A DNA stretch of 64,000 bases, from positions 1-64,000 of the forward strand of contig JAKUQR010000017.1 of NCBI GenBank assembly GCA_022450155.1, read 5' to 3'. The position numbers and the translations under genes are program-made. The notes beneath the pieces were generated by a model, which was not told the DNA's origin, ran no database searches, and worked only from the letters and a program-made list of their open reading frames with translations. Positions within the stretch are counted from its first letter, which is position 1; every line of letters starts with the position of its first letter. This DNA is from Gammaproteobacteria bacterium (GTDB lineage: Bacteria > Pseudomonadota > Gammaproteobacteria > Arenicellales > UBA868). This document shows, piece after piece, positions 11,316-27,211 of this stretch.

Positions 11316-11505
11316 AGTCTACCAGTAGGGACGTTTGGCGCTGCAGTGTACGGCATTGACACGCAGAGCAACCTCGTCGATAAGTTTAGCTGCCTGACGT
11401 CCTGCCTGACCGGTTCCACGGCTTCGAGAATTACGGCAACAACAGGCGTTTCTATCCTATACTGGCTTGATACGAATGACGCTGTTCCCTGTTCGTACAG
11501 CCACC

Positions 11506-12684
11506 ATGACAGAACCTTTAGTTATCAACAAAGAGCAGGTCGCTCACCGTGCTGACTACGGCGTGCACGAACAGGCCATGCAAGCCTATATCCGTGCTGG
11601 TCAGTCGCGTGCATTGGCACTGCCAAACCGCGGCCAGTTGCGATTCTTGGACAATGGTGACCTCCATCCCGATATCAGTTCAGCGGTTCAGAAGTACGGG
11701 TTTTATGTCCTGAAAAATCTGGTTTGTTCGGACGAACTCAACGACATCGAGGTCGATGTCTTTAACATCCTTGAGCGTCTACCGACTTCTAAAGGGTCTC
11801 CCGTAGACAAACAGGGGCGGTCCGCACTGGGTGTTGACTGTGAGGGAGTGAGCCTGTTCTGGTCCCGACCTCTGGGTGACCCGTTTGGTGGAACTGATCG
11901 CGCCGCTGGCCGCCATCCAGTCAAAATGTTGGAACCTGAACCGGTGGCCGATTCACCCGAGCAAACCGTTTATCTGATTTTGGGGGTACTTCAGTTTTCT
12001 GACGCTCTTTTGCGTCTGTATGCTCATCCAGATTTGCTTAGGTTGGCCGCATGTCTGAACGGAGAGGATTTCGTGCCATTTAATGAGGCCATGTTCATCA
12101 AGCAGCCTGGATTAGGTGCGTCTGTGGCGTGGCATCAAGACGGGGTGACACACTGGGACAGCAAACACTGGGACAGCAGTATTCACGGGTACACTTTTCA
12201 AGCTCAACTCTATGGCTGTACTGCGGCCAATGCTGTCTGGTCGGTACCGGGTTCTCATCGTCTAGGCAAAGTCGATATTTCGAGTTGGGCGGCTGATAAC
12301 GGTTCGGAGAGGCTCCCCGATGCCGTCCCGTACATCTGTGATCCGGGAGACGTCGTGATCCATAACCGTCAACTGGTTCACGGTTCGTTTGCCAATACCA
12401 GCCCGGACTGGCGTGTATCCTTCACGCTCGGATATCACCGGCGGTCCAGCGTATTGGGTGTTCAGGGGGGTGGCGTTCACAATGCAACAGCGGTCTATGA
12501 CGAAGAACGGATTCATAAACGATCGCGAATGATCGGGTATGGGATCGATGCCAGACGGCAAAGGTTTCCAGATGAATCACCCTATACCTACGCCCCTTTT
12601 GTGAAGAGCGGTGAGAAGCTGGAATGGAACGAGAGCGTCAAACAAACGATCCATGATTACAATTTACTTGACCTCAGTATTTGA
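11506..12684 (+). CDS. Phytanoyl-CoA dioxygenase (PhyH) family protein
   Basis: A 392-residue Fe(II)/2-oxoglutarate-dependent oxygenase of the PhyH superfamily. The metal site is visible: His and Asp in VAWHQDGVTHW (about residue 210) and the distal His in VIHNRQLVHGSFANTS (about 290), followed by an Arg in DWRVSF that would bind 2-oxoglutarate. I chose the ATG at 11506 (MTEPLVI); a TTG/ATG-rich extension of 13 residues upstream is also open. The next gene's start at 12744 lies about 60 bp downstream on the same strand, so the two may form an operon. The substrate could be any of many small molecules hydroxylated by this superfamily. Confidence 0.85.
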   Translation: MTEPLVINKEQVAHRADYGVHEQAMQAYIRAGQSRALALPNRGQLRFLDNGDLHPDISSAVQKYGFYVLKNLVCSDELNDIEVDVFNILERLPTSKGSPVDKQGRSALGVDCEGVSLFWSRPLGDPFGGTDRAAGRHPVKMLEPEPVADSPEQTVYLILGVLQFSDALLRLYAHPDLLRLAACLNGEDFVPFNEAMFIKQPGLGASVAWHQDGVTHWDSKHWDSSIHGYTFQAQLYGCTAANAVWSVPGSHRLGKVDISSWAADNGSERLPDAVPYICDPGDVVIHNRQLVHGSFANTSPDWRVSFTLGYHRRSSVLGVQGGGVHNATAVYDEERIHKRSRMIGYGIDARRQRFPDESPYTYAPFVKSGEKLEWNESVKQTIHDYNLLDLSI

Positions 12685-12743
12685 CCTATCGGGCCTGTGG
12701 CGGATGCCTCGACGTATTCAGCACGCACAATAAGGATTGCGAT

Positions 12744-13838
12744 ATGACCATTGTTATTTCTAATATTAAGACAACACCGGTTCTCGTGCCTTTCAGGCGT
12801 CCACCAGTGACAGCCAGTGGCGCCATTGGCGAACTACCCCTAGTTCTGCTTGATGTAGAAACTGATGTCGGGCTGACGGGTCACGCCTATCTGTTTGTAT
12901 TTCTAAAATCGATGTTAAAGCCAACTATGGACTGTGTGGCCGCATTAGCAGAATTGGTGCGGGGTATGAACGCTGATCCCGATCAGGTAGATCCACTTCT
13001 GAGACGACAGCTCCGACTGTTGGATATTCACGGGATCCTCGGCCAAGTACTCGCAGGGCTAGACATGGCACTCTGGGATATACGGGCAAAATCTGAAGAC
13101 CTTCCGTTAGCTAAGGTGTTAGGTGATCCGCGGGATTACGTAAAGACTTATAACAGTTGCGGCCTTTGGCTCGAAAAGGGGGATCCAGAGAAACTCGCAG
13201 ACCAGGCGCACGAGCTACTTGCTGAAGGTGACTTCAGCGCAGTCAAGCTGCGACTCGGTTATGAGACTTTTAAAGAGGATCTTGCTGTGGTTCGTGCAGT
13301 CAAGCGCAGTTGCGGCGACACGGTTGATCTGATGAGCGACTTCAATCAGGGGCTCGATCAAAAAGAAGCGCTTCTTCGCTGTCAGGCACTGGATGGAGAG
13401 GGGTTGTACTGGATTGAGGAGCCCGTTCGCTACGACGATTACCATGGGTCGTCTGCACTGGCGGCTGCGGTGGATACTCCGATTCAGACGGGTGAGAACC
13501 TGCTCAACCCGCTTGAATTCCAGAAAGCTCTGAAAGCCAAAGCCGCTGACTACTATATGCTAGACGTACAGCGTATTGCCGGGGTTTCAGGCTGGCGTGC
13601 AGCCGTCACCCTGCCGGAAGCTGAAAGCATTCCAGTATCTACTCATCTTTTCCCAGAGATCAGCATTCACCTGATGGCCACGACCAACAATGCGCACTGG
13701 CTTGAGTATGTCGACTGGGCCAGCCCAATTATTCGTGAGCCTACAGTTGCGTTGGGCGGAAAGGTGCAAGTACCGACGACTGTCGGTAATGGTATCGAAT
13801 GGAATACAGAAGCCGTCGCGCGTTATCAGGTGGAGTAA
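12744..13838 (+). CDS. Mandelate racemase-like enolase-superfamily enzyme
   Basis: A 364-residue enolase-superfamily protein that looks closest to mandelate racemase. Metal ligands are Asp in SDFNQGL, Glu in WIEEPVRY and Glu in QTGENLL. The His-Asp dyad is visible as YMLDVQR and VSTHLF, and a further conserved Glu is in AHWLEYV. The KxK motif of the racemase is K168-L-R170 here, so the second catalytic Lys is Arg. It abstracts a proton alpha to a carboxylate; the outcome may be racemisation, dehydration or cycloisomerisation. The start is the ATG at 12744, 7 bases after AAGGA. An upstream in-frame extension overlapping the dioxygenase stop is unlikely to be translated. Confidence 0.88.
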   Translation: MTIVISNIKTTPVLVPFRRPPVTASGAIGELPLVLLDVETDVGLTGHAYLFVFLKSMLKPTMDCVAALAELVRGMNADPDQVDPLLRRQLRLLDIHGILGQVLAGLDMALWDIRAKSEDLPLAKVLGDPRDYVKTYNSCGLWLEKGDPEKLADQAHELLAEGDFSAVKLRLGYETFKEDLAVVRAVKRSCGDTVDLMSDFNQGLDQKEALLRCQALDGEGLYWIEEPVRYDDYHGSSALAAAVDTPIQTGENLLNPLEFQKALKAKAADYYMLDVQRIAGVSGWRAAVTLPEAESIPVSTHLFPEISIHLMATTNNAHWLEYVDWASPIIREPTVALGGKVQVPTTVGNGIEWNTEAVARYQVE

Positions 13839-13859: not shown

Positions 13860-14153
13860 CTATTCAGAGCCCTCGACAATTCGAAAATCCCGCACCACAC
13901 CGTCTGCGAGTTTTTCAAGGGCCGCCTGATACGCATCACTTTGGTAAGTACTCAGCGCGGCATCATAACTGGGGAACTCGACTACCACTGTGCGTTCTGC
14001 CACGCCAGCTTCTTTGGCCGTAATTGCGCCTCCTCGAACCAAGAAATTCCCGCCGTTAGCCTTGACTGCCGGCGCTGCCAGCTCCGCATAGGCTGCCAGC
14101 TTTGCAGGATCATTGATTTCACGATAAGCACTAATCCAGTATCCTTTAGCCAT
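13860..14153 (-). CDS. DUF1330 domain protein
   Basis: A 97-residue protein of the DUF1330 dimeric alpha-beta barrel family, recognised from the opening GYWISAYREINDPAKLAAYA, the central NGGNFLVRGG, and VVVEFPSYDAALSTYQS. The function of the family is unknown. I chose the ATG at 14153 because a good GGAGGA lies 5-6 bases before it; the ATG four codons upstream would place that SD inside the gene. It is convergent with the mandelate-racemase-like gene and has its own likely promoter (14226-14255). Confidence 0.88.
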   Translation of the reverse strand: MAKGYWISAYREINDPAKLAAYAELAAPAVKANGGNFLVRGGAITAKEAGVAERTVVVEFPSYDAALSTYQSDAYQAALEKLADGVVRDFRIVEGSE

Positions 14154-14225
14154 ATTTTCCTCCATTGTGATTGAATGTTGGACGATCTATCGAACAGTCG
14201 TTTTCAATTGGAACTGCCAGTCCCG

Positions 14226-20352: not shown

Positions 20353-21345
20353 ATGGTAGACCTGCTTGTGTTTGAGGAATCGTTGCCGCGGCTTAGCGAA
20401 GCGTTAGCACATCATGATGGCTTGCGGATTGTTTGCTGGCATACTGATGGCAGATTCTCACTGGGCGGTCAAACCGTTGATGCCGACGCCATTGAACCGG
20501 AAATCGGTTGGATCAGCTTCGATATCTTGGCCCGCGGAAAAATGAGAAAATATGTCGAGACCCTATTGCAGTTTGACAGCCTGCGTTGGGTCCAGACCGG
20601 GCATGCCGGGCTTGACGATCCCCTGTACAGTGCACTGGCAGAGCGCGGTGTACGACTGAGTAAGAGTTATGCACAATCGATCGCAATCGCAGAATACACC
20701 CTGGCATACGCCCTTTACTATTTTCAGGATATCGAGTTTCGACTGGCGTCACAGCGTGCAACCGAATGGAAAAGCAAGAGATTCAGGGAACTTTACGGCA
20801 GCCGCTGGCTGATTGTTGGTTTCGGCCATATCGGACGTCGTGTCGCACAACGAGCGCGAGCGTTTAACTGCCATATCACAACGCTGCGCCGTTCCGGTAC
20901 CTCAGACCCAGCCGCAGATGAGGTCGTCGGCCGGGCGGAGTTGTCTACCACTCTGGCAAAAAGCGATGTAGTGGTGTTGGCGTGTCCTGAAAATACGGAG
21001 ACTACCGGGCTTGTTGATGTGGCGTTTGTCACTGCCATGAAAAAAGGATCACTGTTGATCAATGTTGCACGCGGCGGTTTGATCGACGATTCAGCGTTGA
21101 TAACCGGACTCGAACACGGTCGACCGGAGTTCGCGGTGCTGGATGCGTTTTCAGTGGAGCCGTTGCCGGTAGAGCATCCTTACTGGACACACCCGAATGT
21201 GATCATCACGGCACATATGTCCAATCGCGGCGATGGTACCTCGGGTCGGGGGACGGAACAGTTCCTGGATAATCTTCGTCGCTATCTGAAGGACGGAACA
21301 CCTGATGATGAGGTCGATCCTCGATTTTTCATTGCGCCGACTTGA
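20353..21345 (+). CDS. D-2-hydroxyacid dehydrogenase family protein
   Basis: A 330-residue NAD(P)-dependent dehydrogenase. The dinucleotide motif is IVGFGHIGRRVAQRA (about residue 155), and the catalytic residues are Arg in INVARGGLIDD, Glu in DAFSVEPLP and His in ITAHMS. It would reduce a 2-oxo acid to a D-2-hydroxy acid or the reverse. The N-terminal substrate domain is divergent. It reads with the MFS gene upstream (73-bp gap) and is convergent with a flavin monooxygenase. Confidence 0.88.
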   Translation: MVDLLVFEESLPRLSEALAHHDGLRIVCWHTDGRFSLGGQTVDADAIEPEIGWISFDILARGKMRKYVETLLQFDSLRWVQTGHAGLDDPLYSALAERGVRLSKSYAQSIAIAEYTLAYALYYFQDIEFRLASQRATEWKSKRFRELYGSRWLIVGFGHIGRRVAQRARAFNCHITTLRRSGTSDPAADEVVGRAELSTTLAKSDVVVLACPENTETTGLVDVAFVTAMKKGSLLINVARGGLIDDSALITGLEHGRPEFAVLDAFSVEPLPVEHPYWTHPNVIITAHMSNRGDGTSGRGTEQFLDNLRRYLKDGTPDDEVDPRFFIAPT

Positions 21346-24780: not shown

Positions 24781-26151
24781 ATGATTGATTTACTTGAGAT
24801 TGCACAAACTGAGGCAGATGGGGGTGATCTTCTGGAGGCATTGTCGGCGCTGTTTCAGACCAGCGATGTTCGACCGGCAGGTTATCCCGATGCGTTGATC
24901 TGGCAGGGCGGTTTACATGATGGAAAGATTAATCCCGTCGCGCACGCCTTGACGGATGCCTATGCATTGATTGGCACCATTGCTGCTGTAGACGTTTTGG
25001 GACTGCCCTACTATGCAGTACCGATGTGGGCACAGTACCGTCACGACCATAATCTTGAGCCGCTGGCCTGGTTCGGAAACATGTCCTGTACCTCAATCAA
25101 GTGGTCAACAGCCGGTGACGTCTATGTTGCTGATGGCCAGGGCGGCAAAGTTGTGGTGATGGGAAAGTCAGGCAATGCAGCGTTGCGAACCCAGGCTGGG
25201 GTCTACTGCAACGTGAGACCGTACGGTTGCATCACAGTTGTGCGCTGCATGCCGTGCCTTCCGTATTCCCAGGATCGGGCTGTGTTTGATGTCGATGCCC
25301 AAACCGGTGTCATCCATTCGGAAATGAACACCCCAGGTATTCAGATGGCGTATGCCAACCGTCGATTTCTGCAGATGGTCCATGAAACCGGTCGACTGGG
25401 ACGGGTTGCCATGAAACCAACCCAGGCAATGGAGGACGGAGTCAACGCCGGATTGCTGTCCTGGATGCTGCAGGACACGCAATTCAAGATTGGCCGGAAG
25501 TTCACCGTTGATGGTTATGTTGAATATCGTGAGCAGGTTGATCGGATCGTGTCGCTGCTGCCAGAAGACTTCAAGGCCGGTATGGAGTCTTGGGGCGGTC
25601 AGATCGAAATGCATATCGCCGACACTAATTATGGACTGCTGCTCTGGGACCTGATCGAAAACCGTGAAGTGATTGTGCTGGCGACCGACCTCGATGGTGA
25701 TCGGTTGACCGACCTGTTGGCCGATGTATCTGAACCTTTGCGCCGGTTCGGTCAAATTGTGATCGACAAGCTGGGGTCCGAAGCTCGCATGGATGACTTG
25801 TGGGGTGAGCTTGGCTACACCACTGGTAACGGTAGGGATATGACATCTATTATGTACAGGATGGAAGGTCCACCCATTCACGAACAAACGCTTGGATCAG
25901 CGGACGCCATGTTACTCCGCCTGCTAGACGGTGATGAATCCGTGGGCGGGACGAAAAAACCCTACGACCCAAGAATCCACTTTGTATTGATCCGGGATGC
26001 TTACATAGACGCAAATCCCGGCAATGCTGCACTTCATGACTGGCTGGATGAAGCACTGAACGTGTTCGACAGGGTTTATGCTGACGACCGACCTGGATTT
26101 CTAGAAGGCTACGGCGAACTTAAGAACCAGATTAGGCCCTGGGGCACCTAG
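24781..26151 (+). CDS. Uncharacterised 456-residue protein with a four-Cys cluster
   Basis: I do not recognise this protein. It is soluble-looking, with no signal peptide or membrane helix, and acidic. The most distinctive part is a cluster of four Cys within 17 residues, C143-x6-C150-x5-C156-x2-C159, followed by DRAVFDVDAQTGV; it could bind a metal or iron-sulfur cluster. The N-terminal third has a conserved-looking GGLHDGKINPVAHALTDAYA segment. A Rieske oxygenase gene starts 52 bp downstream on the same strand, so a joint role is likely. The frame is long, uses codons like its neighbours and has no competing frame, so it is a real gene. Confidence 0.8.
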   Translation: MIDLLEIAQTEADGGDLLEALSALFQTSDVRPAGYPDALIWQGGLHDGKINPVAHALTDAYALIGTIAAVDVLGLPYYAVPMWAQYRHDHNLEPLAWFGNMSCTSIKWSTAGDVYVADGQGGKVVVMGKSGNAALRTQAGVYCNVRPYGCITVVRCMPCLPYSQDRAVFDVDAQTGVIHSEMNTPGIQMAYANRRFLQMVHETGRLGRVAMKPTQAMEDGVNAGLLSWMLQDTQFKIGRKFTVDGYVEYREQVDRIVSLLPEDFKAGMESWGGQIEMHIADTNYGLLLWDLIENREVIVLATDLDGDRLTDLLADVSEPLRRFGQIVIDKLGSEARMDDLWGELGYTTGNGRDMTSIMYRMEGPPIHEQTLGSADAMLLRLLDGDESVGGTKKPYDPRIHFVLIRDAYIDANPGNAALHDWLDEALNVFDRVYADDRPGFLEGYGELKNQIRPWGT

Positions 26152-26203
26152 CGCAATAGCGTGGTTGTTGCTGTGCGATTTACGGATGAGGTGGTTTAGC
26201 AAG

Positions 26204-27211
26204 ATGAAGAATCTCGGCCCTGAATTTTACACGGATTCTGCACTCTATGAGCGCGAGCGCCGGGTGATCTTCTGGAATACATGGCAGTTGCTGGGACCGG
26301 TCACATATCTCTATTCGGCAGGGGATTATCTGGCTACAGAGATTGCCGGGGCCAAGGTATTCGCCATCCGTGACAATGACGGGAAACTGCGTGCATTTCG
26401 CAATGTCTGTCGTCACCGGGGCGCCCGACTGTTGCCGGAAGGGCAGGGCAACTGTAAGCGTATCCGATGTCCCTACCACAGCTGGGTCTATAGACTGGAC
26501 GGTAGCCTAGAGCGTACACCGTGGTTTGGCGACGATCCGAAATTTGATCCAGCTGACTGGCCGCTTGACGAAATTTATGTCGACGTATGGCGCGGCCTGG
26601 TGTTTGTTGCCCTGGATACGGATCGTACTCTGGAGAGCCAGCTTGCAGCCGTTATCGGCGAGCTGGCCTTGGAACCGATTGAAACCTATCAGCCCGTGGC
26701 ACAACATCGGTTGGTGTTTGATGCCAACTGGAAAGTCTACACGGACAATTTTGTAGAGGGCTATCATATTCCCACCATACATCCCAGTTTCTTTGAGGCT
26801 ATCCAATTTGAACAGTTTGAGACCACCGTGCATGACAACATGGTGCGTATGTCTGCACCGGCACAAGACAAACTTTTTTATCGGGGCAGATGGTTGTGGA
26901 TGTGGCCCAATTGGACCTTGTCTGTGTTCGACGGCGGCATGAACACCTCCCGGGTAAATCCAGTCGGACCCGCGCAGACCGAACTGATTTACGAGTTCTA
27001 TTTCTGTGATGAGAAGCGGGTGGACAAATCATCATGCCAGGAAGTCATCGCACAGAATCTGGCTGTTATCGAGGAAGATTTTGAAATCTGTGTTCAGACG
27101 CATAAAAACTACGCCTCAAATGCATATGTGCCGGGGCCGTTGAGCCACAAGCAGGAAGCCGGCGTACACTGGTTTCAGTCAAAACTCAGAGATTTGTTGG
27201 TACCTGACTGA
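26204..27211 (+). CDS. Rieske non-heme iron oxygenase, alpha subunit-like
   Basis: A 335-residue ring-hydroxylating-type oxygenase. The Rieske [2Fe-2S] ligands are in CRHRGARLLPEG and CPYHSWVYRLDG (Cys-x-His and Cys-x2-His, about residues 68-92). The catalytic mononuclear iron site is DNFVEGYHIPTIHPSF, with two His, and a later Asp expected in the C-terminal part. The short, single-subunit build resembles betaine/carnitine-type oxygenases as much as aromatic dioxygenases. I chose the ATG at 26204 because GAGGTGG lies 9 bases upstream; a TTG at 26165 extends the frame. No reductase or ferredoxin gene is adjacent. Confidence 0.88.
   Translation: MKNLGPEFYTDSALYERERRVIFWNTWQLLGPVTYLYSAGDYLATEIAGAKVFAIRDNDGKLRAFRNVCRHRGARLLPEGQGNCKRIRCPYHSWVYRLDGSLERTPWFGDDPKFDPADWPLDEIYVDVWRGLVFVALDTDRTLESQLAAVIGELALEPIETYQPVAQHRLVFDANWKVYTDNFVEGYHIPTIHPSFFEAIQFEQFETTVHDNMVRMSAPAQDKLFYRGRWLWMWPNWTLSVFDGGMNTSRVNPVGPAQTELIYEFYFCDEKRVDKSSCQEVIAQNLAVIEEDFEICVQTHKNYASNAYVPGPLSHKQEAGVHWFQSKLRDLLVPD

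Follow-up and report, generated by a model that had tools for sequence, protein, structure and literature searches.

An arginine in place of the second catalytic lysine of mandelate racemase marks a large group of bacterial enzymes with 2-hydroxy acids as probable substrates

What reaction is catalysed by an enzyme that keeps the active site of mandelate racemase (MR), the standard case of enzymes that abstract a proton from a weak carbon acid, except for an arginine in place of the second lysine? The question is raised by one gene in the window, the whole stretch of 64,000 nucleotides of a gammaproteobacterial contig (JAKUQR010000017.1) that was analysed (Table 1). The K164-T-K166 motif of MR aligns in its product with K168-L169-R170, encoded by AAG CTG CGA. 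In MR, Lys166 serves (S)-mandelate and His297 serves (R)-mandelate (PMC9835602). The preliminary description had already recognised an MR-like enzyme whose second lysine is Arg170, and mapping on MR and comparison with orthologues confirm this assignment.

The open reading frame holds at the coordinates given in Table 1. Its frame opens at TTG 12681; ATG 12744 is favoured as the start, being preceded by TAAGGA and being the point from which close relatives align to residues 1–364. Both PF13378 (7e-49) and PF02746 (1e-14) score over the Pfam cut-off. Pfam, the AF2 model (mean pLDDT 93.1) and the comparison with PDB structures agree on the architecture of the MR subgroup of the enolase superfamily: MR_MLE N- and C-terminal domains, with a capping domain and a barrel. 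When the model was compared with 999 PDB chains, 3ugv and entries of MR came out best, at a Z of about 52 and an rmsd of 1.3–1.4. First in the list, though level with 3ugv and the other MR entries, stands 1mdl (Z 52.1), in which MR carries the K166R mutation and (R)-mandelate is present. MR of Pseudomonas putida (1mns, 1mdr, 1mdl, 3uxk; Z about 52, rmsd 1.3) shares the fold over the whole length at 37.5% identity.

Table 1. Coordinates of the genes, codons and other features discussed in the text. Positions are those of the window or of the region fetched for each locus.
Feature	Sequence	Position	Strand	Remarks
PhyH-type Fe(II)/2-oxoglutarate oxygenase	window	11467..12684	+	directly upstream of the K-x-R gene; relatives start nearer 11506
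Shine-Dalgarno-like TAAGGA	window	12731..12736	+	7 bases 5' of ATG 12744; from sequence
K-x-R mandelate-racemase-like CDS	window	12744..13838	+	364 aa; end coordinate takes in the stop; Pfam, AF2 and PDB matches
Codon of Asn137 (MR Asp138), second-shell residue	window	13152..13154	+	mapping on MR
Codon of Lys168 (MR Lys164)	window	13245..13247	+	mapping on MR
Codon CGA of Arg170 (MR Lys166, S-specific base)	window	13251..13253	+	mapping on MR
Codon of Asp274 (MR Asp270, paired with the catalytic His)	window	13563..13565	+	mapping on MR
Codon of His301 (MR His297, R-specific base)	window	13644..13646	+	mapping on MR
DUF1330 gene	window	13863-14165		convergent with the K-x-R gene
D-isomer-specific 2-hydroxyacid dehydrogenase (PF02826)	window	20353..21345	+	6.5 kb downstream of the K-x-R gene
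Open frame, 456 residues	window	24781-26151
Rieske oxygenase alpha subunit	window	26165-27211
PanE-like reductase	L016	7016-7960
PanE-like reductase	L018	7015-7959
PanE-like reductase	L033	7045-7989
PanE-like reductase	L056	7069-7989
PanE-like reductase	L070	6997-7989
K-x-K row	L210	4977-6074
K-x-R row	L025	425-1501

The remainder of the active site is that of MR. Nine mapped positions are identical, namely S139, K164, D195, N197, E221, E247, D270, H297 and E317 of MR (S138, K168, D199, N201, E225, E251, D274, H301 and E321 in the window protein), which bears out the earlier claim that all other catalytic and metal residues are conserved. The residues that we take to define the MR family in the SFLD (D195, E221, E247, the His-Asp dyad, E317 and K164) are all present. 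Hydrophobic residues occupy several places of the MR pocket (I28, F51, F53, L302 and V323). The window protein differs from MR at D138 (N137), H140 (C139) and Y54 (F53), and the loop after strand 132–137 is 2–3 residues longer. The K-L-R motif recurs in orthologues on six other named contigs (L009–L014, 87–93% identity). Chance, sequencing error or an annotation artefact behind Arg170 are ruled out, as the residue is kept in these orthologues and throughout the group described below.

Two further solved proteins belong to the same family. The enolase-superfamily protein 3ugv from alphaproteobacterium BAL199 (EFI-501650) has the K-x-R motif (KLRMG) and an Asn at the MR Asp138 place, as does the window protein, and agrees with it in the other residues (38.6% identity, Z 51.9), but among the K-x-R rows it stands on a branch of its own close to the base. 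The Bradyrhizobium sp. ORS278 protein BRADO_4202 (3toy and 3tte, the latter holding mandelic acid according to its entry title) has the same fold but carries K-x-K and groups with MR. A K-x-R clade with a known reaction, the finding that the preliminary description set against its own reading, was looked for: the clade exists and has a structure, 3ugv, and the literature searched, in which subscription journals were thinly covered, gives no reaction for K-x-R members, 3ugv, 3toy, 3tte or the EFI target numbers. Among NCBIfam models, none reaches its cut-off for the window protein. In the SFLD, as described in PMC5467563, the MR family is characterised by two catalytic residues, a histidine and a lysine. 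By that description the window protein has the histidine (His301) and not the lysine (Lys166 is Arg170). Because this lysine is missing, the protein is MR-like at the enolisation step yet is not to be filed as a mandelate racemase. A 2009 survey reported that misnaming was highest for the MR family within the superfamily, at 90% in NR (PMC2781113).

The preliminary description had treated the K-x-R motif as a peculiarity of this protein, which it is not. All 80 of the nearest relatives in named genomes carry it. This set takes one genome per species and is part of 88 loci, the window itself being L001; the lone K-x-K protein among the 88 (L008) is 40% identical. A wider search used a profile built from 18 K-x-R proteins (A1) and covered 397 genomes from the phylum, 369 from the class, 385 from the class to which genome G075 belongs and 300 from the order that includes genome G273. 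The profile scores fall into groups at 350 bits or more (mostly above 400), at about 310–320 bits and at about 256 bits or less. The wider set, which combines 120 fetched regions, the nearest-relative loci and three PDB chains, contains 192 family rows (above 350 bits): 155 are K-x-R and 37 K-x-K, and no residue other than Arg or Lys occurs at that place. K-x-R is found in all 12 rows of a sister group (280–350 bits) and K-x-K in all 14 outgroup rows. MR (432 bits) and 3toy (396 bits) are K-x-K; 3ugv (439 bits) is K-x-R. The sister group (L254–L264 and L211, at about 310–320 bits) has mostly Glu at the MR Trp249 place, and Gly, Ala or Ser at residue 139. The window protein shows both marks of the group, the K-x-R motif on the second strand of the barrel and an Asn in place of MR Asp138, and is a member of a large bacterial K-x-R group within the MR family.

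Several second-shell residues change together with the arginine. At the MR Asp138 place, Asn is found in 152 of the 155 K-x-R family rows, whereas the 37 K-x-K rows have Asp in 19 and Asn in four. The MR His140 place holds Asn, Cys or Lys in 145/155 K-x-R rows and Tyr, Val, Leu, Phe or Ile in 32/37 K-x-K rows. At the MR Leu319 place, 123/155 K-x-R rows have Val (V323 in the window protein), compared with Leu or Met in 28/37 K-x-K rows. The loop following the strand is also longer in K-x-R rows. A stray K-x-K row, L210, has Ala where K-x-R rows have Asn. Since Arg travels with N137, with Asn, Cys or Lys at the His140 place and with V323, the site is arranged around Arg. This coupling of Arg and Asn is limited to the MR family, because the sister group has Arg yet has Asn at the Asp138 place in just one of 12 rows.

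Does the genomic setting reveal the substrate? The preliminary description had held that the neighbours fit a 2-hydroxy-acid route. At the window locus, the sole co-directional adjacent neighbour is the PhyH-type gene, which probably forms one operon with the K-x-R gene; it lies beside the orthologue in L010, L011 and L013 and is absent there in L009, L012 and L014. The class-III aminotransferase and OYE genes lie on the opposite strand, and the 2-hydroxyacid dehydrogenase gene, syntenic in L013, is 6.5 kb away. The orthologues in L009, L012 and L014, although 91–93% identical, have a different neighbourhood. Because of this single co-directional neighbour, the strand or distance of the others and the different setting of orthologues, we set the local neighbourhood aside as weak evidence for a pathway. 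In L009, L012 and L014 the genes ahead of the orthologue encode an alcohol dehydrogenase of the iron-containing type and a PLP enzyme of Cys/Met metabolism; the dehydrogenase at L009 and L012 may resemble hydroxyacid-oxoacid transhydrogenase, a likeness to which we give no weight. The small convergent DUF1330 gene is kept in loci that share the PhyH context. Farther along the window, an open frame just upstream of the Rieske oxygenase alpha subunit gene has no Pfam match at 1e-5. Neither a PanE-like reductase nor an LDHD gene lies beside the K-x-R gene at the window locus; elsewhere in the genome, a relative of LDHD is 66% identical (contig C18) and the best PanE-like gene 38% identical. This genome (3.2 Mb) has 11 matches to MR-superfamily enzymes, many for its size, and larger expansions of the superfamily have been reported in SAR202 genomes (PMC6946804).

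The part of the earlier claim that stands, a role in 2-hydroxy-acid metabolism, is favoured by stronger evidence from neighbours across the wider group. We compared 201 loci, which clustering at 78% identity reduces to 136 groups; 104 of these are K-x-R (95 from the family and 9 from the sister group) and 32 are K-x-K. Neighbouring frames were chosen partly by their GC content at each codon position, not by a gene caller. A PanE/ApbA-type 2-oxo-acid reductase occupies the -1 position on the same strand in 13/104 K-x-R groups compared with 0/32 K-x-K groups (Fisher p 0.038, by a test that ignores shared ancestry), and a PanE-like gene lies within five genes in 19/104 versus 1/32. As just 13 of the 104 groups have it directly upstream, and 85 have no PanE-like gene inside five genes, the reductase does not define the K-x-R group. 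At five loci from Pseudomonadota and Actinomycetota (L033, L056, L059, L070 and L071), its stop overlaps the K-x-R start by 4 bases (ATGA/GTGA). The linked PanE/ApbA copy is as a rule not the sole one, since nine of ten genomes checked hold at least three ApbA genes; the genome of L018 has one.

Other oxidoreductases recur in the same setting. An FAD enzyme whose nearest solved relative is the D-lactate dehydrogenase LDHD lies within five genes in 9/104 K-x-R groups versus 0/32 K-x-K groups; mouse LDHD uses D-2-hydroxy acids with hydrophobic groups, not the L forms, in the work reported in PMC10589216. D-2-hydroxyacid dehydrogenases (D-2HADH) related to the one encoded in the window are found at +1 in L028, L035 and L042 (Pfam-checked in L028), and a LUD-domain protein at +1 in L044. 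An untargeted Pfam tally of 142 genes directly adjoining K-x-R genes is led by ApbA with 11 cases; the runner-up counts 4, and D-2HADH, FAD-oxidase and LUD occur twice each. In the corresponding tally for K-x-K genes, which covers 118 neighbours, no family is counted more than 3 times, and those four are missing from the best 25 of 115 families. The two tallies differ in reach (one versus two genes per side), and isolated cases may have escaped the listing. Several unrelated families of 2-hydroxy-acid oxidoreductases thus recur beside K-x-R genes, a pattern not shared by K-x-K genes, and the K-x-R group probably acts on 2-hydroxy acids. The pairing of a PanE-like reductase with a K-x-R enzyme in Pseudomonadota and Actinomycetota may mark an undescribed 2-hydroxy-acid pathway.

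Our leading proposal, held tentatively, is that the window enzyme performs an MR-type enolisation of an (R)-2-hydroxy acid with one efficient base, and that net beta-elimination is more likely than fast two-way racemisation because Arg170 would be a poor base. We infer the one-base mechanism, the enantiomer and the substrate class; the net reaction is the least certain part, a guess. Mg2+ would be bound by D199, E225 and E251, and together with K168, E321, N201 and S138 as electrophiles would bind the substrate, a 2-hydroxy acid bearing a hydrophobic side chain, by its carboxylate and alpha-OH. From the (R)/D enantiomer, the alpha proton would be taken by the His301-Asp274 dyad. Arg170, in a wall remodelled by N137, C139 and the longer loop, may stabilise charge on the opposite face. 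Overall, beta-elimination would turn a (2R)-2-hydroxy-3-substituted acid into a 2-oxo acid, and the 2-oxo or D-2-hydroxy acid may be passed to partner oxidoreductases (PanE-like, D-2HADH or LDHD-like). PanE-type reductases produce D/(R)-2-hydroxy acids. The retained His base and the D/(R)-specific partners, PanE and LDHD, therefore indicate the same enantiomer. There is precedent for elimination: MR converts 3-chlorolactate to pyruvate with loss of Cl, and in a 3-hydroxyproline enzyme of the superfamily racemisation and elimination occur side by side, as described in PMC8142540. A site with His as its only base is compatible with elimination to a 2-oxo acid.

Every neighbour is, however, equally compatible with a racemase that feeds a stereospecific dehydrogenase. 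The window enzyme could racemise or epimerise hydrophobic 2-hydroxy acids with Arg170, in place of Lys166, as acid/base, perhaps slowly or with a bias in one direction, the D-specific neighbours using the D enantiomer; we regard this as a serious possibility, somewhat less probable than the one-base enzyme, and slow Arg-assisted racemisation as nearly as likely as elimination. The pocket and all other residues are MR-like, the mandelate pathway follows the same logic of a racemase with a stereospecific dehydrogenase, and the best structural rows include 1mdl, the (R)-mandelate entry of the MR K166R mutant. This mutant reportedly retains slow racemase activity, so that Arg does not exclude 1,1-proton transfer. 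Against racemisation, Arg is a poor base, and Lys is one or two base changes away; yet Arg is kept throughout the group, together with other changes in the same wall, while Lys is present in MR and other K-x-K rows, which form nested groups.

A third reading makes the protein an MR-subgroup dehydratase of acid sugars (talarate/galactarate type) whose likeness to MR is incidental; we consider it improbable. The nearest NCBIfam model is indeed that of L-talarate/galactarate dehydratase (NF047820, E 5e-57), and the fold is common to both (2pp0, Z 45); but the score is 193.6 bits against a cut-off of 500, the structural alignment gives 26% identity, a clear score gap separates family from outgroup rows, and the MR pocket places hold the hydrophobic residues named above.

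Which of the two residues is older? The rooted maximum-likelihood tree has 77 rows, 22 of them K-x-K rows of the family; 21 of these, including MR and 3toy, form one group (support 96/85) that sits deep inside the K-x-R rows. The remaining one, L210, stands apart and pairs with the K-x-R row L025 (support 100/95), to which it is 63.9% identical. Three changes explain the distribution of Arg and Lys on this tree, and the count is unchanged when the column of residue 170 is left out of the alignment. In a tree drawn without the sister group and with an outgroup of 14 K-x-K rows, K-x-R-only clades of 10, 8 and 13 rows still came off at the first three splits, three K-x-K rows branched before the remaining ones, and four changes were needed. 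A single origin of K-x-K that includes L210 is not rejected (p-AU 0.08); the L210/L025 pair represents a possible second natural Arg-to-Lys change.

Since the K-x-K rows, MR included, nest inside K-x-R, Lys166 of MR looks derived from Arg. Arg is thus probably ancestral within the MR family, as judged from the sequences with a distant outgroup. The outgroup rows are K-x-K, and before the origin of the family the place was therefore probably occupied by Lys. The converse, that K-x-K is ancestral in the family and the K-x-R rows are degenerate or weakly active offshoots that lost a base secondarily, draws on the same distant outgroup but is unlikely: confining the 46 main-family K-x-R rows to one clade costs 48.8 log units and is rejected (p-AU 0.0023), a purely K-x-K outgroup still leaves K-x-R-only clades at the first three splits, and Arg is kept across 155 rows.

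It is the K-x-R group and its relation to MR that are of main interest; the apparent oddity of Arg170 is explained by membership in that group. A broader view, plausible but well short of established, is that MR grew from a larger and older K-x-R group by a late Arg-to-Lys change, possibly repeated (L210), and that the K-x-R majority would perform a His-only lyase or exchange reaction on hydrophobic (R)-2-hydroxy acids with PanE/LDHD-type partners, which would be new to the enolase superfamily. The K166R mutant of MR was reportedly engineered to dissect the MR mechanism. The residue introduced by hand in that mutant occurs naturally in a widespread enzyme group, where it is conserved and apparently ancestral. 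If the broader view is true, the direction of change, from Arg to Lys, would be known for a transition from an uncharacterised function to the textbook racemase, with natural pairs at hand, and many genes called mandelate racemase by similarity would carry the wrong name.
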